The translations under genes and the position numbers were made by a program. A model generated the notes under the pieces. It was given only the letters and a program-made list of their open reading frames with translations. It searched no databases and was not told the origin of the DNA. Below, one piece after another: positions 14,758 to 31,733 of a stretch of DNA of 36,765 nucleotides (the stretch's first letter is position 1; every line of letters begins with the position of its first letter). This stretch comes from a virus. The stretch is from the IMG/VR virus record IMGVR_UViG_3300009104_000056, positions 1 to 36,765 of that record; one strand, written 5' to 3'.

Positions 14758-15101
14758 AGCTTTGTCGCCTCGACGTGGTACACGAGCCTGTCATCAGGGT
14801 AGGCGATGCCGTTCAAACCGTCCAGCGTCGCCTTGATGGCGTTGTCCAAGTCGAAACGTAGTTTCGACGTGGCGTCAGGCATCTCTTCGATCTCGATGGT
14901 CTGATAGTCGGGGGTGTATGCGATCCTCATAAGGATCGGCCCTTCAAACCAGGGGCCGTCGTACGCTTCGGCGATTGTCGCCTCGTACTCCAACGTGTCC
15001 TTCGGCGTGTAGACACGGCCACGCCGTGTCATGCGGGGACGCCCCTTTGGTTTGGGACGCCCCTCAACGATAAAGGCGTGTTCTTTTTTCCGCTTCGGCA
15101 T
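14754..15101 (-). CDS. rusA: RusA-family Holliday junction resolvase (115 aa)
   Basis: Resolves four-way DNA junctions by paired nicking. The N-terminus has the family's basic entry motif (GRPKPKGRPRMTRRGRVYTP, residues 14-33). The acidic active site is complete: FDLDNAIKATLDGL gives Asp84, Asp86, Asn87 and Lys90, and YPDDRLV supplies Asp103/Asp104, matching the Asp70, Asp72, Lys76 and Asp91 set known for E. coli RusA. Length is typical. It starts inside the 3' end of the primase gene (38-base overlap) and is followed by another nuclease gene, forming a recombination unit. Confidence 0.9.
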   Translation of the reverse strand: MPKRKKEHAFIVEGRPKPKGRPRMTRRGRVYTPKDTLEYEATIAEAYDGPWFEGPILMRIAYTPDYQTIEIEEMPDATSKLRFDLDNAIKATLDGLNGIAYPDDRLVYHVEATKL

Positions 15102-16125
15102 CTCGGAAGGCTTTCTCCGCTAGGTGCTGTAACTGGCGGTGCTGGTCGGGTTGTGGTTTCCCGTTGTAATAGAACTTGCGGGTGAACCTGTCGTCTAGTT
15201 CGATGAGCCACCCCACCACCGCATCCACCGTATGTCCGTCTCGGCACGCAAACGCAGCGAACTTGTACAGCCACCCGTGCCTGCCCTTGCCTGCGCCTTG
15301 GTTCTCGGTGAACGCTGAGATCGGTGGCCCTTCCTCGAACATTTCTCTGAGGCGTCCACGCAGTTTCCCTGAGGCCCTCCGACTTTCATGTGAAAGTCGT
15401 GGGGTGGGCGTCGGCGGTGGCGCCTTCAGCAACGCAGCAGCCTTGATGTCTGCGACCTTGGCACGGTTGGCGTTCGCTTCATGGAGGAAGTCTTCCAACC
15501 GTATGGGCGTGCCGTCTTCTTCGATGGCGACCTGCCTGTCCATGCGGGCACGGTTCCCGTAGTAGGGGAGCCTCACGAAGTTCCCTGGCGGTCCTGGTAG
15601 CGATTCGCTCTTCGGGAACGGGGAGTCGGTCGGCACCCCTGCGATCTGTTCTGTCGCTTGCAGGCATCGCCGCATGTCGGCGGTTGAGCACCATGTGTCG
15701 GGGAACACCCATACGTGTGCGCCACCTGAGCGGGTGCGTTCCACCCAAGCGGGGATGCTTTGCGCTGCGAGTACAGCGACGAGGCTGAACGCATAGTCGG
15801 CTACCTCGTCTTCGGTGCCTTGCCCCTTGTGGGATTCGGACTGGGCGTCAATGTCGATGCACCCCCAACTGCACACCCACAGTTCGGGCCGCATGTCAGG
15901 GTACCGTCGGTCGTCGTCCCATCCCCGTGGACCCACATGCTTGTTGGTGGGGTCGTACACCATCGGGTAGATCCCCAACGGCGCCTCCCCGTCGAGGTGC
16001 CGTCGGAAGTGGGCGAGCGTCAGGTCTTCCCAGATTGCTCGGGGACGGTCACCTGCTTCTCCCCATGCGTGGGGGAACCCGTGGAACGTCATGTGGAACC
16101 ATGACGCCAGATCGCTAACCGTCAC
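15064..16125 (-). CDS. Archaeo-eukaryotic-type primase / primase-polymerase (353 aa)
   Basis: The frame is open to 16176, but GTG 16125 has AAGGA six bases upstream and overlaps the preceding small gene by 11 bases, so it is preferred. Core AEP motifs are present in order: CIDIDAQ with Asp91 and Asp93 (metal binding), RSGGAHVWVF with Gly134-Gly135 and His137, PKSE with Lys172, and NFVRLPYYG (182-190). A C-terminal helical region (about 270-353) resembles a PriCT-like accessory domain (KFAAFACRDGHTVDAVVGWL). It would make primers and possibly extend DNA. Adjacent helicase and resolvase genes place it in the replication module. No separate DNA polymerase gene is visible. Confidence 0.85.
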   Translation of the reverse strand: MTVSDLASWFHMTFHGFPHAWGEAGDRPRAIWEDLTLAHFRRHLDGEAPLGIYPMVYDPTNKHVGPRGWDDDRRYPDMRPELWVCSWGCIDIDAQSESHKGQGTEDEVADYAFSLVAVLAAQSIPAWVERTRSGGAHVWVFPDTWCSTADMRRCLQATEQIAGVPTDSPFPKSESLPGPPGNFVRLPYYGNRARMDRQVAIEEDGTPIRLEDFLHEANANRAKVADIKAAALLKAPPPTPTPRLSHESRRASGKLRGRLREMFEEGPPISAFTENQGAGKGRHGWLYKFAAFACRDGHTVDAVVGWLIELDDRFTRKFYYNGKPQPDQHRQLQHLAEKAFRDAEAEKRTRLYR

Positions 16126-16282
16126 GATGTTCCTTCTGTTCCTGTATGTCGGCGGCTCTGAGTCGTGCCGCCACATAGTCGGCGTGCCAGCCGACGGACA
16201 CGTCGTCGTCCCACACCACCCAGCCTGTGCGCGTCAACCCTGCGCCCAGGTAGATGGTTTGCCTCTCCACGGTGACACCCAT
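16115..16282 (-). CDS. Small hypothetical protein (55 aa)
   Basis: Starts MGVTVERQTIYLGAGLTRTG, has a Trp/Asp-rich centre (WVVWDDDVSVGWHADYVAAR) and ends in a charged helix. It begins two bases after the previous stop and overlaps the primase GTG by 11 bases, so coupling is likely. No family recognised. Confidence 0.55.
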   Translation of the reverse strand: MGVTVERQTIYLGAGLTRTGWVVWDDDVSVGWHADYVAARLRAADIQEQKEHRDG

Positions 16283-20359: not shown

Positions 20360-20457
20360 CCGTCCTCCCAGCCTTCTTCGTTTTCCTTCTGCGCCTTCAC
20401 CGCAAGGTCCGCCTGCTCTCCCAGCAGGTACTCCACATCCTCGTCGTCGAGGTTCAT
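20356..20457 (-). CDS. Acidic micro-protein (33 aa)
   Basis: Reads MNLDDEDVEYLLGEQADLAV and ends KAQKENEEGWEDG. AGGAGA seven bases upstream of ATG 20457. The start overlaps the methyltransferase stop (ATGA) and the stop overlaps the next start, so it is fully embedded in the operon. Function unknown. Confidence 0.55.
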   Translation of the reverse strand: MNLDDEDVEYLLGEQADLAVKAQKENEEGWEDG

Positions 20458-21401
20458 GCCTTCTCTCCTGTCTGTTCGAGCAGCCACCCGTATGCGGCTG
20501 CCGCTTGTTGCGGGACAACACCGTTGCCCAACATCTTCAACTCCTGCGTGCGTGACAGACCCATGTCGCACACCCACCCACTAGGCAGCCCCATCATCCA
20601 CTCCACGAACCAGGTGGACACACCCTTCTCGTCGGTGGGCGGCGGCGCTACCCGTCCAAGCCGCTGCTCCCATCGTCTGATGGCAGGTTCATAAGCACCG
20701 AAGCAACTGAGTCGGCGTGCTTCTCCGCCCGCTTCTTCCAATCCACGTTCGGGCCGAAGCTCTTGTGGTCCCACGCCTGCGGCGTCGGCAACAGGCGCTG
20801 CACCTCTATCGACAGGCTCTTGCCGTGCCCGTTGCCGTTGCGATGCTTCTCCCTCTGCTCCGCCGTCCACGCATCCCACTGGGAAACCGTCTTGCCCGCC
20901 CCCATGTCGTTCACCACAGGCGTAGGCAACACAGAACCAGCGTTCCCTGCGATGGCAGGCACCCACAGACTGGTCGGCTCGTATACATGCCCACTCCGCA
21001 TCGAACCCTCCGTCGGCCAACGCATCGAGGACTTGCCCGAAGGCGACACCTTGGTTGGCGGTGAGCACACCCCGCACGTTCTCCAAGAACAACCATTGTG
21101 CGCCTGCTCGTTCTGCCACAGAGACGACATCCCTGATCAACCACCTTTCATCATCTATACCTGCCCGCCTCCCAGCATGGGACACGGGCTGACACGGGAA
21201 CCCCGCCGTGATCGCATCCACCTGTGGTGGATCGGCGATCTCGGTCAGGTCACCCAAGTTCGGTACCCCGAACCGTGCATCCAACACGACCGAAGCATGC
21301 TTGTCTGTCTCCGACACCCACACCAGGTCAGTGTCGATGCCTGCCAGTTGCAGCCCTAGTTCGAGGCCGCCGTACCCTGCACACAGGGCCCCTACCCGCA
21401 C
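20454..21401 (-). CDS. DNA (cytosine-5)-methyltransferase (315 aa)
   Basis: Transfers a methyl group from S-adenosylmethionine to cytosine C5. The frame is open upstream, but GTG 21401, sharing a base with the preceding TAG, gives MRVGALCAGYGGLELGL, which places motif I at the N-terminus as usual. Motif IV is GFPCQPVSHAGRRAG with nucleophile Cys70; motif VI is LENVRG (Glu107-Asn108-Val109); motif VIII is HRRERWFCVA; motif X is ELKMLGNGVVPQ near the C-terminus. All core motifs are intact. The region between VIII and IX is short and Gly/Glu-rich, so target specificity cannot be read. No restriction endonuclease gene is adjacent, so it is probably an orphan enzyme protecting phage DNA or marking it. 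Confidence 0.92.
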   Translation of the reverse strand: MRVGALCAGYGGLELGLQLAGIDTDLVWVSETDKHASVVLDARFGVPNLGDLTEIADPPQVDAITAGFPCQPVSHAGRRAGIDDERWLIRDVVSVAERAGAQWLFLENVRGVLTANQGVAFGQVLDALADGGFDAEWACIRADQSVGACHRRERWFCVAYACGERHGGGQDGFPVGCVDGGAEGEASQRQRARQEPVDRGAAPVADAAGVGPQELRPERGLEEAGGEARRLSCFGAYEPAIRRWEQRLGRVAPPPTDEKGVSTWFVEWMMGLPSGWVCDMGLSRTQELKMLGNGVVPQQAAAAYGWLLEQTGEKA

Positions 21402-21832
21402 TACCCCTTCACCTCCACCCACTCGACTGGCTTCGGGAAGAATTCCTTCACCCCGTCGGGGCCGAACTCCCACCTCCACCTGGCGCCGTCCTCACCAGAC
21501 CACTCCATGTAGCCCGTCATCAGATCGGCGATGGTGAAGATGAACAAGTGTTCCTGCCCCGACTTGGAGTCATAGTCGTCGAACACCAAGTCATCGGACT
21601 TGTCGCTGAACCAGAACCCCAAGTCCGCGAGGATGGCTTTCGCATCAGCGCACGTCTCGGGATAGTTCGGGTCCATCCACGCAAACCACTTCTGCTCTCC
21701 GTCGGGGCCAAAACTGCCGCCACGCTTGTACTCGTCGTGGTCATTCAGCGCACACATGCGTTCGTATGCCTCCGCATGGTGCTTCTTCGGGAGCACAGCG
21801 GTGCTGTCCTCCAACCTCACGTAGTAACCCAC
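21401..21832 (-). CDS. Hypothetical acidic protein (143 aa)
   Basis: GTG 21832 (GGAGAGAG upstream) starts MGYYVRLEDSTAVLPKKHHA. The protein is Trp/Phe/Asp-rich with a compact look: KWFAWMDPNYPETCADAKAI, ADLGFWFSDKSDDLVFDDYD, SGQEHLFIFTIADLMTGYME. I recall similar proteins in actinophage genomes without assigned function. It is translationally joined to the methyltransferase by a one-base overlap; a functional link is possible but not shown. Confidence 0.65.
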   Translation of the reverse strand: MGYYVRLEDSTAVLPKKHHAEAYERMCALNDHDEYKRGGSFGPDGEQKWFAWMDPNYPETCADAKAILADLGFWFSDKSDDLVFDDYDSKSGQEHLFIFTIADLMTGYMEWSGEDGARWRWEFGPDGVKEFFPKPVEWVEVKG

Positions 21833-25997: not shown

Positions 25998-26015
25998 TTG
26001 TGCCACGTAGCACAA
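25998..26015. promoter_or_regulatory. Palindromic operator, copy 3
   Basis: TTGTGCCACGTAGCACAA, identical to copy 1. It lies 24 bases before the TTGACT of the rightward candidate promoter and about 170 bases upstream of the regulator gene, so it could affect both directions. Confidence 0.8.
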
Positions 26016-26039
26016 GAGGGTGCCCGCTAGGTGTCGGGC

Positions 26040-26068
26040 TTGACTTTTCGGCGACCATCGACTAAGCG
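26040..26068 (+). promoter_or_regulatory. Candidate rightward promoter 1
   Basis: TTGACT (26040-26045), 17-base spacer, TAAGCG (26063-26068). The -35 is strong and the -10 weak. The first GRGAA inverted repeat begins nine bases later, near the expected start of transcription. Confidence 0.4.
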
Positions 26069-26077
26069 CCTGGAAAC

Positions 26078-26090
26078 GAGAACCATTCTC
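26078..26090. promoter_or_regulatory. Inverted-repeat box 1
   Basis: GAGAACCATTCTC: arms GAGAA/TTCTC around CCA. Same design as the next two boxes. Flanked by AAAC on the left and AAAA on the right. Confidence 0.75.
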
Positions 26091-26108
26091 AAAAGCGCAG
26101 GTTCCGAT

Positions 26109-26137
26109 TTGACAGCAGCCCGAAAACCTGCTAGCGA
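26109..26137 (+). promoter_or_regulatory. Candidate rightward promoter 2
   Basis: TTGACA (26109-26114) is a perfect -35; 17 bases later TAGCGA is a partial -10. The second inverted-repeat box follows three bases after, so it would cover the transcription start. Confidence 0.45.
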
Positions 26138-26140
26138 CCT

Positions 26141-26153
26141 GGGAATCATTCCC
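26141..26153. promoter_or_regulatory. Inverted-repeat box 2
   Basis: GGGAATCATTCCC, extending to TGGGAATCATTCCCA. Arms are GGGAA/TTCCC with centre TCA. Immediately downstream of candidate promoter 2. Confidence 0.75.
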
Positions 26154-26164
26154 AAAACGAAAAC

Positions 26165-26177
26165 GAGAACGATTCTC
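26165..26177. promoter_or_regulatory. Inverted-repeat box 3
   Basis: GAGAACGATTCTC, one base different from box 1. It is preceded by AAAACGAAAAC. Centre-to-centre spacings are 63 bp (box 1 to 2) and 24 bp (box 2 to 3). Confidence 0.75.
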
Positions 26178-26500
26178 AGCTCAGCCGTCGCCCAGCCGTC
26201 GGGCGGGGCACCCCCACGGGGGGCGGGGGCCAAGCCACCCCCCATGTATAGATATGGATTCCCGATGCGTTCGAGTCTGCGTTGCCCGCGTGCCGTGTAA
26301 CTTTGCGGGACTATACACTGTATTGATTTGCGGGGGCTCGGCCCAGTCCTTGGGGGGCCTGGGCCTCGCTGCTAGCGGCTGGAGGGCGACGCTCCGCGTC
26401 GCCCGTGCCTAGCCCTTTTTTCATTAGCGGGGGTTGTCCCACTGCGCCGTTTCAGGCATGTAGCGTGGGACAGGGTTCGGGTGTTTGTGGAGGTGGTTTG
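26178..26500. other. Late-gene leader region without a gene
   Basis: No convincing coding frame. It is GC-rich with C/G homopolymer runs (26200-26250). TTTGCGGG occurs twice, 25 bases apart (26302-26309, 26327-26334), around ACTATACACTGTATTGA, a possible further promoter. GGCCCAG (26340-26346) and CTGGGCC (26359-26365) can pair. TGTCCCAC (26435-26442) and GTGGGACA (26465-26472) form a longer-range inverted repeat just before the small terminase ribosome-binding site. Confidence 0.6.
26384..26421 (+). terminator. Terminator-like hairpin in the late leader
   Basis: GGGCGACGC (26384-26392), loop TCC, GCGTCGCCC (26396-26404) make a 9-bp stem. A run of six T (26416-26421) follows after 11 bases, further away than in a classical terminator. 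It sits between the candidate rightward promoters and the first late gene, so it may act as an attenuator. Confidence 0.5.
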
Positions 26501-26959
26501 ATGCCGCAGAATGGTGGAGGCAAGGGTTGGAGGACTGATCCTGAGACGGGCGAGAAGGTGATGCCTGATTCGTGGAAGGCGTTTTTGGATTGGGTTCTTC
26601 AGGGGCCTGCCAGGGTTCCTGAGCACCAGTATGAGTGGGCGCGTGAGAATGGTGTCCATGAGGATTCGGTGCGTCGGTGGAAGCGTGATCCTAGGTTTGT
26701 GAAGGAGTGGGATCGTCGTGCCGCCGAGTTGAACATTCATCCTGAGCGTACGCAGTCGGTGATTGATGCGTTGCATCAGCAGGCGGTGGCTGGTTCGACG
26801 CAGGCTGCGTCGTTGTATTTGCAGTACATCGAGAAGTTCACGCCGAAGCGTCGTGTCGTTGTTGATGATGAGCGTGAGGTGGCTGGTTTGTCGGATTTGG
26901 AGTTGGCTGACGAGTTGGCTGGTTTGGTCGCGGAGTTTCGCGGGGAGGATGTTCGGTGA
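26501..26959 (+). CDS. terS: Terminase small subunit (152 aa)
   Basis: GGAGGT eight bases before ATG 26501 decides the start over the longer frame from 26405. Residues 25-65 (SWKAFLDWVLQGPARVPEHQ, YEWARENGVHEDSVRRWKRD) form an HTH-like DNA-recognition domain of the kind seen in phBC6A51-type small terminases. It is followed by helices (IDALHQQAVAGSTQAASLYL) and the frequent small-terminase ending EKFTPKRRVVVDDER, then an acidic tail. It would recognise the packaging site and feed DNA to the large subunit. It heads the late block, with the large subunit genes about 580 bases downstream. Confidence 0.85.
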   Translation: MPQNGGGKGWRTDPETGEKVMPDSWKAFLDWVLQGPARVPEHQYEWARENGVHEDSVRRWKRDPRFVKEWDRRAAELNIHPERTQSVIDALHQQAVAGSTQAASLYLQYIEKFTPKRRVVVDDEREVAGLSDLELADELAGLVAEFRGEDVR

Positions 26960-27177
26960 GTGGTGTTTGGTTCCCGTATGCTGAGGAGCGTGCGGAGCAG
27001 CGTTTCGATCCTGATGGGGATTTGTTTTGGCGTGAGGAGGCTTTTGGGGAGCGTCCCATGTTGGGTCCGTGGGGCGATCCGATCCACGACCTTGATGCCG
27101 AGCCGCATTCTTGGTTGTCTGATGAGGTGTTGGAGTGTGGTTTGGAGAACCCTGAGGTGTGTGAGGCGTGCGATTGA
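26956..27177 (+). CDS. Small hypothetical protein (73 aa)
   Basis: GTG 26956 overlaps the small terminase stop (GTGA). Starts MSGVWFPYAEERAEQRFDPD, continues LFWREEAFGERPMLGPWGDP and ends with three cysteines (ECGLENPEVCEACD), so it could bind a metal. Next gene starts in its stop (TTGA). No family recognised. Confidence 0.6.
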   Translation: MSGVWFPYAEERAEQRFDPDGDLFWREEAFGERPMLGPWGDPIHDLDAEPHSWLSDEVLECGLENPEVCEACD

Positions 27178-27272
27178 AGTGGGTCGTGTGCCTTTCGGTC
27201 ACGGCGGCGTTTATGTCTGTGGCATTTCTGGTTTGGGGATTGGGCCAGACGTTTCGGTCGTTGTTCGAGTAG
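27174..27272 (+). CDS. Single-pass membrane peptide before the ferredoxin (32 aa)
   Basis: TTG 27174 overlaps the previous stop (TTGA) and the stop TAG ends directly before the ferredoxin ATG. Reads MKWVVCLSVTAAFMSVAFLV then WGLGQTFRSLFE: one membrane helix with a short basic/acidic tail. The exact fit between two genes supports it; the uncommon TTG start lowers confidence. If it is made, it could anchor or partner the ferredoxin at the membrane. Confidence 0.5.
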   Translation: MKWVVCLSVTAAFMSVAFLVWGLGQTFRSLFE

Positions 27273-27542
27273 ATGAAAGTTTGGATTGACCAGGATCTTT
27301 GCACGGGGGACGGGATTTGTGTTGAGATTTGTCCGTCGGTGTTCGACATGCACGAGGATGGTTTGGCGTATGTCAAGGAAGCCGACTGGCCTACCCTCTG
27401 TGGGCCAGATGGCAGCCCACGGGGTGAACCCGTTTATCAGATGGCCGAAGGGCGGGCGGTAGTTCCTGAAGGGGATGTTGATGCCGCTATTGAGGCTGCT
27501 GAGGAATGTCCTGGCGAGTGCATTTTTCTTGAGGTCGAGTAG
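27273..27542 (+). CDS. Ferredoxin, Asp-containing single-cluster type (89 aa)
   Basis: A small soluble electron carrier. The N-terminus MKVWIDQDLCTGDGICVEIC is a classic ferredoxin start: Cys10, Asp13, Cys16 and Cys20-Pro21 follow the CxxDxxCxxxCP spacing in which Asp replaces the second cysteine, as in Pyrococcus furiosus ferredoxin. The distal Cys79-Pro80 (AAIEAAEECPGECIFLE) completes the site. A 3Fe-4S cluster or an Asp-ligated 4Fe-4S cluster is therefore expected. A 25-residue insert (about 37-63, with Cys43) lengthens the central loop. It lies between terminase genes with direct start-after-stop packing, so it is co-expressed with packaging proteins. A ferredoxin in this place is unusual; the partner enzyme is not in the window. 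Confidence 0.92.
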   Translation: MKVWIDQDLCTGDGICVEICPSVFDMHEDGLAYVKEADWPTLCGPDGSPRGEPVYQMAEGRAVVPEGDVDAAIEAAEECPGECIFLEVE

Positions 27543-28430
27543 GTGAGCCGTCTCGGCGAGCTGCGCCAGGAGGCCGAGTGGCGTAAGTGCGTTCGTGACG
27601 AAAAGTATTTTTTGCGGACGTATTGGCATATTGCGCATCCTGCGCATGGCCGCATCTTGTTTGATTTGAGGCGTGCTCAGGCTGCCGCCATCGACCATTG
27701 GGATAGTAACCGTTATTCTTTGACGTTGAAGGCCCGTCAGATCGGCTGGTCTACGTTGGTGGCGGCGCACCAGTTTTGGTTGGCGTTTTTTCATCCTGAT
27801 CAGAACATTATTGATTTGTCTCGTACGGAACGTGAGGCTGTCCAGTTGTTGCGGAAGACGAAGTACGGGTTTTCGCATTTGCCGAGGTGGATGGTTGATC
27901 GCGGCCCCAGGCAGCTTGTTGAGCATCAGCAACGCATGTTTTTCGGTAATGGTTCCCAGATTGTTTCGATGCCGTCAGCGTCGGATCCTGCGCGTGGCGA
28001 GTCCGCCACGCTTATCGTGGTGGACGAGTGGGCGTTCTTGCCGAACCCCGAGGAGGCGTGGGCTTCTATCGAGCCTGTCGCGGATGTTGGAGGGCGGATC
28101 ATTGGGTTATCGACCGCGAATGGATCAGGAAACTTTTTTCACCATCTTTGGGTGGGGGCGAGCACGGGGAACAACAAGTTTGAACCCATGTTCTACCCGT
28201 GGTCTGCCACGGAGGATCGTGACGATTCGTGGTATGAATCGAAGGTTGAGTCGATGTTGCCGTGGCAGTTGGCTCAGGAGTATCCGACGACGCCTGAGGA
28301 GGCGTTTGTAAAGTCGGGGAATCCCGTGTTCGATTTGGATGTGTTGGACGACATGATGGTGCGTTGCCGCCCTGGGTTGTCGGGGTATTTGCACGAGTTG
28401 TCGGCCAGGTCTGTGGAGTTCAGGTCGTGA
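27543..28430 (+). CDS. terL: Terminase large subunit, ATPase part (295 aa)
   Basis: DNA-translocating motor domain only. GTG 27543 follows the ferredoxin stop directly. Walker A-like LKARQIGWST (62-71) with Lys63, Arg65 and Thr71 is of the K.RQ.G.ST form usual in large terminases. Walker B is LIVVDEWAF (157-165), with Glu162 as catalytic base. The coupling motif is GLSTANGSG (188-196). The protein ends at ...SGNPVFDLDVLDDMMVRCRP plus about 20 residues, where intact terminases continue into the nuclease domain; here the nuclease is a separate gene. The stop overlaps a small zinc-ribbon GTG (GTGA). Confidence 0.9.
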   Translation: MSRLGELRQEAEWRKCVRDEKYFLRTYWHIAHPAHGRILFDLRRAQAAAIDHWDSNRYSLTLKARQIGWSTLVAAHQFWLAFFHPDQNIIDLSRTEREAVQLLRKTKYGFSHLPRWMVDRGPRQLVEHQQRMFFGNGSQIVSMPSASDPARGESATLIVVDEWAFLPNPEEAWASIEPVADVGGRIIGLSTANGSGNFFHHLWVGASTGNNKFEPMFYPWSATEDRDDSWYESKVESMLPWQLAQEYPTTPEEAFVKSGNPVFDLDVLDDMMVRCRPGLSGYLHELSARSVEFRS

Positions 28431-28561
28431 ATTGTTGGCGTTGTGACTCCGAGTTGGTGTGGCAGGGGGATTACGACTTTCCAGATCACGGCGACGAGGT
28501 GACGGTCACCCGTTTGGATTGTTTTGGTTGCGATGCTCACGTCGAGGTGTATTTGCCGTGA
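28427..28561 (+). CDS. Zinc-ribbon protein between terminase halves (44 aa)
   Basis: GTG 28427 overlaps the ATPase stop and its own stop overlaps the nuclease GTG (both GTGA), so all three are translationally coupled. Reads MNCWRCDSELVWQGDYDFPD then HGDEVTVTRLDCFGCDAHVE. CxxC (residues 3-6) and CxxC (32-35) make a zinc ribbon. Such peptides (C..C...L.W.GD.......C..C...VE.Y) are met as separate small genes in other phages. It may structurally bridge the two terminase parts. Confidence 0.75.
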   Translation: MNCWRCDSELVWQGDYDFPDHGDEVTVTRLDCFGCDAHVEVYLP

Positions 28562-29232
28562 GTTTGGAGGTTTGGTGTAAGCCTCAGGGGGATCACGCGT
28601 ACGTGTTGGGGGTGGACACGGCTGAGGGTTTGGGCCACGGCGACTATTCGTGCGTTCAGGTGCTGGACGTGAACACGGGCGAGCAGGCGGCAATATGGCA
28701 CGGCCATATTCCGCCCGACGAGTTGGCTGCCGAGGTGATGCGGGTCGGCTTGTGGTATCGGGATGCGTTGTGTTGCGTCGAGTCGAACAATCATGGTTTG
28801 ACGACGATCACGATGCTGCGCCAGTTGGGGTATCCGCGTCTGTTTCGGAAGCGGTCGCTGAACCAGGCGACGGCGAAGGTGTCGATGGAGTTTGGTTGGC
28901 GTACGACGCGCACGTCGAAGCCGTTGATGATCGACGATTTGGGGATGGCGTTACGCAACGAGGAACTTCAACTGTTTGACCGTCATACCGTGGGGGAGTT
29001 GCGGACGTTTACCCGCAACGAGCGGGGCACGATGTCGGGGTCACCGTATGACGACAGGGTGATGGCGTTGGCGTTGGCGAACCAGATGCGAAAGTATGCT
29101 CACGCCCCCGAGTATGTTGAACATCCCGACGATTATTGGACGGTCGAGTGGTTTCGGAGGCTTGCGGTGGCCGATGACCACGACTCTGGGGGTTACAGGA
29201 TCGGGGCGAGCAGTGTCCGTGGGACACCCTGA
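28558..29232 (+). CDS. Terminase large subunit, nuclease part (224 aa)
   Basis: RNase-H-fold packaging nuclease. The frame is open from 28459, but the N-terminal 33 residues of that longer form are a shadow of the zinc-ribbon gene; GTG 28558 gives MSLEVWCKPQGDHAYVLGVD. Metal-binding acids are all present: Asp20 (LGVDTAEGLGHGDYS), Glu75 (CCVESNNHG) and Asp165/166 (GSPYDDRVMALALANQ). It would cut concatemers into unit lengths. With the preceding ATPase gene it reconstitutes a full-length TerL of normal size (about 520 aa). Confidence 0.88.
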   Translation: MSLEVWCKPQGDHAYVLGVDTAEGLGHGDYSCVQVLDVNTGEQAAIWHGHIPPDELAAEVMRVGLWYRDALCCVESNNHGLTTITMLRQLGYPRLFRKRSLNQATAKVSMEFGWRTTRTSKPLMIDDLGMALRNEELQLFDRHTVGELRTFTRNERGTMSGSPYDDRVMALALANQMRKYAHAPEYVEHPDDYWTVEWFRRLAVADDHDSGGYRIGASSVRGTP

Positions 29233-29242
29233 GCCGTGTATG

Positions 29243-29254
29243 TAGACATGTCTA
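29243..29254. promoter_or_regulatory. 12-bp perfect palindrome in a 46-base intergenic gap
   Basis: TAGACATGTCTA lies between the terminase nuclease gene and the next gene. It is the only spacer longer than 40 bases between the start of the late block and the portal gene. Possible operator or processing site; could be chance. Confidence 0.4.
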
Positions 29255-29278
29255 TCCACTTCACTCAGGAGTATTTTT

Positions 29279-29563
29279 ATGGCTAGGTTCGTTTCCTTTA
29301 CCAACGGCACGCAGACTGTCGATGGTGCGAAGGGTCAGAACAACAAGATGGAGCGCGGCGGGTCGGTTTCTGCGAACCCGATCTGGGAGCCTGGTGGCGC
29401 CAATTCGCCGAAGCAGCGGTTTGATTCCCCGAAGGTGAACAACCAGACGGGCGGCTACGGCCAGGTTTCGGTGCGCGACACGCCGTTCAATCAGCATGGC
29501 GAGACGGGCAAGGTTGAGCCTGCGAAGCCGCAGCCGAACCTCAAGGGTCATAACGCCCGCTAG
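29279..29563 (+). CDS. Small virion-type hypothetical protein (94 aa)
   Basis: AGGAG nine bases before ATG 29279. Starts MARFVSFTNGTQTVDGAKGQ, then Gly/Asn/Pro-rich without clear helices (NPIWEPGGANSPKQRFDSPK), ending KPQPNLKGHNAR. Low complexity and basic; probably disordered, perhaps bound to DNA or portal. Stop shares a base with the next GTG. Not recognised. Confidence 0.6.
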   Translation: MARFVSFTNGTQTVDGAKGQNNKMERGGSVSANPIWEPGGANSPKQRFDSPKVNNQTGGYGQVSVRDTPFNQHGETGKVEPAKPQPNLKGHNAR

Positions 29564-29835
29564 TGGCCGTATTGCCCCCTAGGGCTTCGTTCGAGGAGTT
29601 CTGCTCGTACGTTCGTGGCATCAACGATGATGTCCACGACGACGAGCTGGACGACTTGTGGGAGTGGCGCCAGAAACTACTTGGTGTCCGAATAGACACT
29701 GGGCGCGGCTACCGCTCGACGCTGCCCCCCGACGAGCAGCATTTGTCCCGCGAGGAACGCGGGTTGAAGGCTCAACAGGAAGCGTTGTCCCAGGGGCGGA
29801 ATATCGAAAGGTTGCCTGACAAGGCGTACTTCTGA
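29563..29835 (+). CDS. Small hypothetical protein before portal (90 aa)
   Basis: GTG 29563 overlaps the previous TAG by one base. MAVLPPRASFEEFCSYVRGI then acidic helix NDDVHDDELDDLWEWRQKLL, a disordered middle and helix LSREERGLKAQQEALSQGRN. TGATG junction with portal. Might help portal or terminase docking; no family recognised. Confidence 0.6.
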   Translation: MAVLPPRASFEEFCSYVRGINDDVHDDELDDLWEWRQKLLGVRIDTGRGYRSTLPPDEQHLSREERGLKAQQEALSQGRNIERLPDKAYF

Positions 29836-31733
29836 TGGCTCGTAAGACACGCAGTGAACTGCTGGACGATTACCAGCATCGGCTGAACCTGTCGCGCCGT
29901 TGGCGCGATGAGGAAGGCTACGACAGGACGTGGCGTCGTTTGATCGACTTGTACAGGGGTAAGCATTGGCCTCGTACGTCGTCTGCGGAGCGCGATTTGA
30001 TCGCGGTGAACTTGTCGTTTTCGACGGTGAACGTGATTGCGCCGTCGGTTGCTGTGAACCATCCGAAGATCGTGGTGAAGGCGAACCATCCTGGCGACGA
30101 GGCGAACGCTTCGTTTGTCGAGGCGGTCGTGAACCATTTGTGGCGTCATCACGATTTCCGCAAGCCTTTCCGCCGCGCCGTCAAAGATTTCCTGATCTTG
30201 GGGCACGGCTGGTTGAAGGTTGGTTGGCGGTTCGTGGAGCAGGAACGCTCTTTGGGCGAGGGGGAGCGCGCCGAGATTTTCGATCAGGCCGTGTCGGAGG
30301 CGAACGCTTTCGCCTTTGAGGAGCCGTTTTTGGCGTCCGATTTGCCGTCTGACGAGGAGATTGAGGCGAATCTGCCGACGACGCAGATGACGATTGTCGA
30401 GGATCAGCCGTTTGTGGAGCGCGTGTCGCCGTTCGACATGTTCGTGGATCCTGAGGCGACCTGCATCGAGGATGCGATGTGGATTGCCCAGCGGATTGTC
30501 CGCCCGTTGAAGGAGGCGCAGGACGACAAGCGTTATTCGCCTTCGGTGCGGAAGGGTTTGGCGGCGAACGCTGGCGTGAACCCGATGTATGCGGACGGCT
30601 ACTACGAGGACACGTTGGAGCGGTACGTGGAGGATGACCGTGTGGTCATCTGGGAGTATTACGACGTGCCGTCGAACACCATGTCGGTGTTCGCCGATCA
30701 GGGCGACGGGTTCCTGGTGCCGCCGACGGTGATGCCGTATGCGTTTGGGCAGCCGTTTGTGATGATGCGGAACTATGACGTTCCTGACGTGTTTTATCCG
30801 ATTGGCGATTTGGAGCCGATCGAGTCGTTGCAGTTGGAGTTGGATAAGACTCGTTCCCAGTTGATGAACGACAGGAAACGGTACGCACGCAAGTACCTGT
30901 ACCACGAGAGGTCGTTTGGCCCTGAGGGCCGTGAGGCTTTGGAGGCCGACGAGGATGGCCGTCTCGTCCCTGTGGTGGATGAGAACAAGCCGTTGTCGGA
31001 GGTTGTCGTCCCGATGCCTCAGATCCCGATTTCAAACGACATTTACGCGTACTCGAACATTATTGAGGAAGACATCAACACGGTGTCGGGCATTTCGGAG
31101 TATGCGCGGGGTGCGATGCCTGAGATTCGTCGTACGGCGACGGAGGCCAGCATTATCGCTGACGCGCAGAACGCCAGGGCTGCCGACAAGTTGGCTTTGG
31201 TTGAGATTGCCATTTCGCATATTGGCCGTCGCGTGTTGCAACTCGTTCAGCAGTACATGACGGGTGAGGCGATGGCGCGTGTCGCTTTGAAGGGCGGCGA
31301 ATCGTTGTATGTGCCGTACACGAGGGAAGAGATTCTCGGCGAGTACGACTTCAGCGTGGAGGGCGGTTCTACGCAGCCGATCAATGACACGATCCGCAAG
31401 CAGCAGGCGGTGTCGTTGATGAACGCTGTTGCGCCTTTGATTGGCACGGTGATTGATCCGACGGCGTTGGCGATGCACATTCTCGAAGAGGGATTCGACG
31501 TGAAGGATCCGATGAAGTTCTTGATACAGCAGCCTGCGACCCCTGAGGAGCAGGCTGTCGCTGGGCAAACCCCGCCGCCGCCCGAGCAGGCCCCGCCGCC
31601 GCTACCCGACATGGGTGGCGTGCCGTTGCCGCAGGGGCCAGATATGGGGGCGTTTGCCCCGACTGGCGGGGTACCGCCCGAGTTGTTGGCGCAGTTGCAG
31701 AACCAGATGGGGTTGGAATTGCCTGCGCTTTGA
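29835..31733 (+). CDS. Portal protein (632 aa)
   Basis: Forms the dodecameric ring at the capsid vertex for DNA passage. The N-terminal part (RRWRDEEGYDRTWRRLIDLY, RDLIAVNLSFSTVNVIAPSV, NHPKIVVKAN) and the following helical wing with a FLILGHGWLKVGWRFV strand are of phage portal type. Residues 330-450 contain the stem-like helices (ESLQLELDKTRSQLMNDRKR, VSGISEYARGAMPEIRRTAT). The C-terminus is Pro/Gln-rich and disordered (QTPPPPEQAPPPLPDMGGVP). Position between terminase and scaffold is canonical. Confidence 0.9.
   Translation: MARKTRSELLDDYQHRLNLSRRWRDEEGYDRTWRRLIDLYRGKHWPRTSSAERDLIAVNLSFSTVNVIAPSVAVNHPKIVVKANHPGDEANASFVEAVVNHLWRHHDFRKPFRRAVKDFLILGHGWLKVGWRFVEQERSLGEGERAEIFDQAVSEANAFAFEEPFLASDLPSDEEIEANLPTTQMTIVEDQPFVERVSPFDMFVDPEATCIEDAMWIAQRIVRPLKEAQDDKRYSPSVRKGLAANAGVNPMYADGYYEDTLERYVEDDRVVIWEYYDVPSNTMSVFADQGDGFLVPPTVMPYAFGQPFVMMRNYDVPDVFYPIGDLEPIESLQLELDKTRSQLMNDRKRYARKYLYHERSFGPEGREALEADEDGRLVPVVDENKPLSEVVVPMPQIPISNDIYAYSNIIEEDINTVSGISEYARGAMPEIRRTATEASIIADAQNARAADKLALVEIAISHIGRRVLQLVQQYMTGEAMARVALKGGESLYVPYTREEILGEYDFSVEGGSTQPINDTIRKQQAVSLMNAVAPLIGTVIDPTALAMHILEEGFDVKDPMKFLIQQPATPEEQAVAGQTPPPPEQAPPPLPDMGGVPLPQGPDMGAFAPTGGVPPELLAQLQNQMGLELPAL

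Follow-up and report, generated by a model that had tools for sequence, protein, structure and literature searches.

Layout of the packaging operon

The window, that is, the whole stretch of DNA that was analysed, comprises 36,765 bases and is itself a virus record. Its plus strand carries a packaging operon whose large terminase (TerL) is encoded by an ATPase gene and a nuclease gene with a short zinc-ribbon gene between them, each of the three in its own reading frame. In tailed phages, TerL serves as the packaging motor and as the standard marker; descriptions give it as one chain of ATPase, hinge and nuclease, and to our knowledge almost every known phage has it in this single-chain form. 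The features discussed are listed below; the last one lies on a related contig.

26405-26959, plus strand: probable small terminase (TerS), 184 amino acids, helix-turn-helix (Pfam HTH_Tnp_1_2, E 3e-6; PHROG terminase small subunit, E 7e-4)
27273-27542, plus strand: 4Fe-4S ferredoxin gene, passenger insert in the terminase operon (Pfam Fer4_15, E 3e-17)
27543-28430, plus strand: TerL ATPase gene, GTG at 27543 to TGA at 28430, 295 amino acids
27729-27755, plus strand: Walker A-like motif KARQIGWST of the ATPase, kept across the clade
28011-28028, plus strand: Walker B and catalytic Glu, LIVVDE; D161 and E162 are invariant
28104-28124, plus strand: motif III (coupling), GLSTANG, invariant or almost so
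28413-28424, plus strand: C-terminal VEFR of the ATPase, equivalent to strand 1 of the predicted hairpin of fused TerL (fused sisters: EFREDGGELAVW); E292 and R294 are nearly invariant
28427-28430, plus strand: GTGA stop/start overlap from ATPase to zinc ribbon, seen in the sequence
28427-28561, plus strand: zinc-ribbon gene, GTG at 28427 to TGA at 28561, 44 amino acids, CWRC...CFGC
28558-28561, plus strand: GTGA stop/start overlap from zinc ribbon to nuclease, seen in the sequence
28558-29232, plus strand: TerL nuclease gene, GTG at 28558 to TGA at 29232, 224 amino acids
28561-28575, plus strand: N-terminal SLEVW of the nuclease, equivalent to predicted hairpin strand 2 (fused sisters: ELAVW); V5 and W6 are nearly invariant
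28615-28617, plus strand: nuclease Asp 20, aligned to gp17 D401 (gp17 residue: PMC3012670)
28780-28782, plus strand: nuclease Glu 75, aligned to gp17 E458 (gp17 residue: PMC3012670)
29050-29055, plus strand: nuclease Asp 165/166, aligned to the gp17 D542 region (gp17 residue: PMC3012670)
L367, 12689-12820, minus strand: another allele of the zinc ribbon, located at the TerL junction as in the window and found by a junction pattern

The ATPase matches Pfam Terminase_6N above the cut-off (E 9e-8) as well as PHROG TerL families (E down to 1e-28), and its profile matches residues 108-321 of T4 gp17 (E 1.5e-31). The nuclease matches Terminase_6C barely above the cut-off (E 6e-5) and phrog_24361, 'terminase' (E 3e-19), and its profile matches residues 387-571 of T4 gp17 and the nuclease of RB49 gp17, 3c6a (E 1e-10). 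T4 gp17 (PDB 3cpe, 3ezk) is the best solved relative by sequence and has the same ATPase and RNase H-type nuclease domains, with the same motifs in the same order. Of the characteristics of a T4-type large terminase, the ATPase motifs are present, as is the RNase H-type nuclease with its three metal-binding acids, and the catalytic residues of both proteins are conserved throughout the clade described below; however, the two domains do not form one polypeptide with a hinge but are found on two ORFs at every locus of this clade, the interdomain hinge being retained on the ATPase chain. Judged from these sequence features, the two-gene TerL is a variant of the T4-type terminase.

A first-pass annotation, made from the letters of the window, had already placed the Walker A, Walker B and coupling motifs in the first gene, all three nuclease acids in the last and a 44-residue zinc ribbon in the third frame, with GTGA overlaps on both sides; the motifs, the alignment to gp17 and the ORFs confirm this. 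Its statement that the parts add up to a normal TerL length holds too: they sum to 519 amino acids, and the fused sisters mostly have 528-569.

The split TerL and its origin

When IMG/VR was searched with the ATPase and the best 80 of 561 related stretches were kept, the ATPase and nuclease genes were separate and adjacent wherever both were visible. A second search, started from a divergent member, listed 80 further loci, all of them split. Altogether, TerL is split in 162 of 162 clade loci examined and fused in none; the loci represent 159 distinct contigs, as three contigs are present twice. The two ORFs overlap directly in all 152 complete pairs without an insert: by 4 nucleotides (NTGA, -1 phase) in 73 loci, by 20 nucleotides including an ATG (+1 phase) in 77 loci and by 26-29 nucleotides in the remaining two, which brings the +1 phase to 79 loci. 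Start codons sit at the 4- and 20-nucleotide overlaps in nearly all split loci. By the dN/dS of about 0.1-0.2 in both ATPase and nuclease and by the correlation of their distances (Mantel r 0.79), the two are functional, co-inherited genes under purifying selection. An exchange of partners was also considered: there are close ATPases with distant nucleases, yet synonymous divergence is unchanged at the junction and no swap is claimed.

A literature search found no natural two-gene TerL, although absence from the papers searched is no proof. The names of the P2 proteins gpP and gpM ('ATPase' and 'endonuclease' subunits) hint at separated functions, but gpP has both Terminase_6N and Terminase_6C and gpM belongs to a small-terminase family, and the pair was rejected as a split TerL. 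For annotation, the consequence is that surveys requiring a full-length TerL miss or mislabel the split clade. Split TerL genes are also found in two metagenome-assembled genomes (L174 and L175) with conflicting hosts, Acidimicrobiaceae TMED189 and Euryarchaeota SAT11, and no host is claimed.

As close outgroup we used the 80 loci listed when the fused TerL of MW202803 served as the search centre. All 80 are fused, and their ATPases are 48-60% identical to the ATPase of the window. These outgroup proteins (MW202803, L286-L365) have the same EFR...L.VW flanks around the break but, unlike the split clade, consist of a single ORF and have no zinc ribbon near TerL; a fused TerL with the zinc sequence as internal insert, the case that the first-pass annotation had named as speaking against its reading, was thus not found among the fused relatives. 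In the tree built from the ATPases, all split loci group together as a clade (support 100/100) that is nested among the fused TerL proteins and requires one change, with the fused L291/L292 as sister group (99/92). A first tree with very distant fused outgroups, in which MW202803 and L257 fell among the split rows, probably by long branches, was replaced by the tree with the 80 outgroup loci.

In 75 of the 80 fused sisters, the break point coincides with a GG turn between two strand-like stretches, the sequence being EFR-EDGG-ELAVW (typically V-Y-E-F-R-E-D-G-G-E-L-A-V-W). Split ATPases end at VEFR plus 1-10 residues and split nucleases begin with (S)L[E/T]VW: the variants are ...VEFRS and stop, paired with (M)SLEVW..., or ...VEFREDAHSLA and stop, paired with MLTVWREP.... 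Both flanks are kept in the split lineages and the residues ED in one of them. Because split members retain the EFR and L.VW flanks of the fused sisters, the fission is best described as having removed or shifted the turn with both strands left in place; compared with the fused sequence, the VEFR end and the (S)L[E/T]VW start put the break at the turn of a predicted beta-hairpin downstream of the interdomain hinge. The window has the -1 arrangement, which seems to branch from inside the +1 arrangement; as some +1 members keep ED, the -1 arrangement is probably the later one.

The crystallised ATPase domain of gp17 ends at residue 360 (2o0h: 385 residues, offset 25), and the split nuclease begins at the equivalent of gp17 residue 382 or thereabouts. 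The break lies past the crystallised domain (1-360) and the hinge, and the ATPase chain therefore holds the hinge together with the beginning of the nuclease domain. An AlphaFold2 model of the fused protein L257 is a gp17-like TerL (pLDDT 82; best fold match 3ezk, E 5.5e-26) in which NVEFV (326-330) and GELAV (342-346) form strands; confidence is low in this region (block means 46-78) and the loop is longer than in the nearest sisters. A large clade with a TerL split since one fission event would show where the chain can break without loss of the motor.

The zinc-ribbon gene and other inserts

The inserted DNA at the TerL junction is 131 nucleotides long (28427-28557, the exact register being free within the CGTGA repeat) and has CGTGA at both ends. 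It is a clean indel against L002 (flanks 96.7% identical in nucleotides), L003 and L005, all without a zinc ribbon at this position. A zinc ribbon between ATPase and nuclease is known from three records: the window, L001, which is almost a copy of it (5,345 bases with 2 mismatches), and L367. L367 is 98.3% identical to the window over 8.4 kb, but the zinc ribbons are just 57% identical, and dS is 0.94 for the zinc ribbon, 0.10 for the nuclease and 0.01 for the capsid gene; by these distances, L367 has an exchanged or separately acquired allele, a difference at strain level. On the first ATPase tree, the presence of the zinc ribbon requires four changes. The zinc-ribbon gene is a later, recent and polymorphic insertion, an exchangeable passenger that is by all appearances dispensable.

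The first-pass annotation had seen in the three genes a fixed packaging motor, with the zinc ribbon as a possible dock between ATPase and nuclease. This would fit the position of the zinc ribbon between both genes with its tight overlaps, the second allele at the same site in L367 and the presence of a zinc ribbon near TerL in 18 of the 162 split loci, including 17 with the gene upstream of the ATPase (directly adjacent to about 960 nucleotides away). However, the 96.7% identical L002 has no zinc ribbon there, 144 of the 162 split loci have none near TerL, and the gene is absent from whole 34-38 kb contigs of the split clade. The alleles at the same site differ at 43% of residues between nearly identical TerL genes, and in phages, members of the family adjoin gp45, helicase and other genes. 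Of the proposed motor, the division into ATPase and nuclease genes stands as fixed, while the zinc ribbon is not a fixed part of the order in related contigs and its function as a dock is very improbable.

The zinc-ribbon family is widespread, with at least 546 confirmed stretches from cyanophages, pelagiphages and others. C3, W4, C6, W12, D15, C32 and C35 are invariant in 54 sequences of the family, and the zinc ribbon of the window has the family pattern (two CxxC, the start MNCW.C...L.W..D and the end.CP.C..VEVY), with F33 replacing the usual P; its PHROG match to phrog_2816 is weak (E 0.007). It has the two CxxC motifs and the length of the phrog_2816 / T4-like GC 651 family of marine phages, at 36-50% identity in isolates and 57% at best in contigs, but members of this family are usually away from terminase genes, whereas the window copy is inserted at the TerL junction. 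An AlphaFold2 model is three-stranded (pLDDT 89), and the nearest solved folds, NrdR (best, E 0.12) and RNA polymerase zinc ribbons, are not significant matches. Our guess is that the protein is most likely a general nucleic-acid-binding accessory, unneeded for packaging. The family is named 'protease' in phrog_2816 and in RefSeq records (L083, L084, L089, L090), a name for which the sequence gives no reason. In 43 of 80 unrelated zinc-ribbon contigs (L094-L173; upstream ORFs counted from 60 amino acids), the gene starts in a 4-nucleotide stop/start overlap with its upstream neighbour, and the sequences suggest that zinc-ribbon genes travel into stop/start junctions.

The ferredoxin gene directly abuts the ATPase on one side and an ORF for a small membrane protein on the other and is flanked by CGAGTAG at 27266-27272 and 27536-27542. 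It is absent in L003, L004, L005 and L012, the alignment of close relatives jumping from 27276 to 27535, and present in L002 and some relatives of the +1 phase (L187, L198, L217, L219). Together, the zinc-ribbon and ferredoxin inserts indicate that stop/start junctions of the packaging operon gain small cargo genes at strain level. The slot just upstream of the ATPase start is a hot spot for cargo (L001-L255; names assigned by eye): its occupants are ferredoxin, zinc ribbon, small membrane proteins, a secreted-looking protein of 271 amino acids and a PAPS-reductase-like protein of 265 amino acids. Elsewhere in the window, the minus strand has genes for a primase-like protein (15064-16176; match to an AEP-TOTE domain, E 3e-12) and a C-5 cytosine DNA methylase (20454-21479; E 7e-36).

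Models for a two-chain motor

The locus probably encodes a natural two-chain TerL, known here from metagenomic contigs alone, with coupled translation, beta pairing across the chains and the zinc ribbon as a passenger. The sequences show that, in a single clade of uncultured phages, the gene of a T4-type TerL was broken within the loop that separates EFR from ELAVW. In the model, the overlapping stop and start would couple translation, and the two chains would be made near each other and in similar amounts. ATPase and nuclease would then rejoin by beta pairing of VEFR and LEVW between the molecules; this pairing would restore the track from hinge to nuclease that T4 gp17 needs, and the rejoined complex would package and cut DNA as gp17 does. 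It is likely, on the evidence of the genes, that the two chains act together. Docking of the chains through VEFR and LEVW is put forward as a hypothesis, because the loop between the strands is modelled with low confidence in L257. More tentatively, a working motor may have its translocating ATPase and its headful nuclease on two chains, perhaps interchangeable ones, that a beta-hairpin formed between the molecules keeps together, with the covalent link dispensable if the break avoids the hinge.

T4 gp17 is one chain, and when it is cut at the linker, ATPase and nuclease activity are kept but translocation is lost (PMC3012670; PMC9958956). A split motor is for this reason not expected to work unless the cut site matters, and the natural break of the clade is about 20 residues further, at the predicted hairpin turn. 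The loss of translocation in cut gp17 therefore makes the split clade a testable exception, and covalent coupling of ATPase and nuclease becomes directly accessible to experiments. The two chains could also do without stable docking, the ATPase translocating alone and the nuclease acting as a free enzyme only for initiation and headful cutting. Two separate genes would suit this reading, as would the phi29 motor, which still packages with a vestigial C-terminal nuclease domain (PMC7672431), and nuclease-dead T4 gp17, by which linear DNA is still packaged (PMC3012670). We consider it unlikely, given that the C-domain of T4 holds the translocation groove and both domains are needed for translocation (PMC9958956), and that the conserved VEFR tail past the hinge and the LxVW of the nuclease would be superfluous for a free enzyme.

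Two further readings would restore a single chain. Programmed ribosomal frameshifting at the overlap could yield a fused TerL, as the frames overlap and the phase is constant inside each subclade. However, one subclade has the -1 phase and the other the +1 phase, and the stop in the nuclease frame leaves a stretch of just 4 nucleotides in 3 loci of the -1 group and of 7 nucleotides in at least 7. With the phase differing by subclade and almost no room between the stops in several loci, frameshifting has very little probability; furthermore, no conserved slippery heptamer was found at the junctions, and with the zinc ribbon in place, the ribosome would have to shift twice in succession and would build the zinc ribbon into the product. 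An intron, an intein or a sequencing error masking a normal TerL is the least probable reading of all. Split inteins do interrupt other phage genes ('fractured genes'). Phage terL introns are known as well: terL of the Vibrio phage ICP1 is interrupted by a spliced intron (PMC10448857) and is in two pieces as here, but ICP1 joins them by RNA splicing whereas here the ORFs overlap and an intron has no room. As the first-pass annotation had already noted, there is no sign of either element: the genes overlap directly in nearly all relatives with no intervening sequence, Rfam has no match at E<=1 in 26000-30000, and the proteins lack intein-sized extensions, the ATPase ending 1-10 residues past VEFR and the nuclease starting at a conserved strand. 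Without the 131-nucleotide insert, the window would be arranged like L002, where TerL is split as well, and the agreement of hundreds of contigs excludes a sequencing error.

Fission of an essential phage enzyme has a parallel in another enzyme, ribonucleotide reductase, which works as two peptides after its gene was split by a homing endonuclease, according to work cited in PMC10448857. No homing endonuclease gene was recognised at the TerL junction or in its immediate surroundings. As a separate observation, the nuclease ends (29200-29229) in a ...RGT- motif that hardly varies in the clade, perhaps a contact site for portal or TerS.
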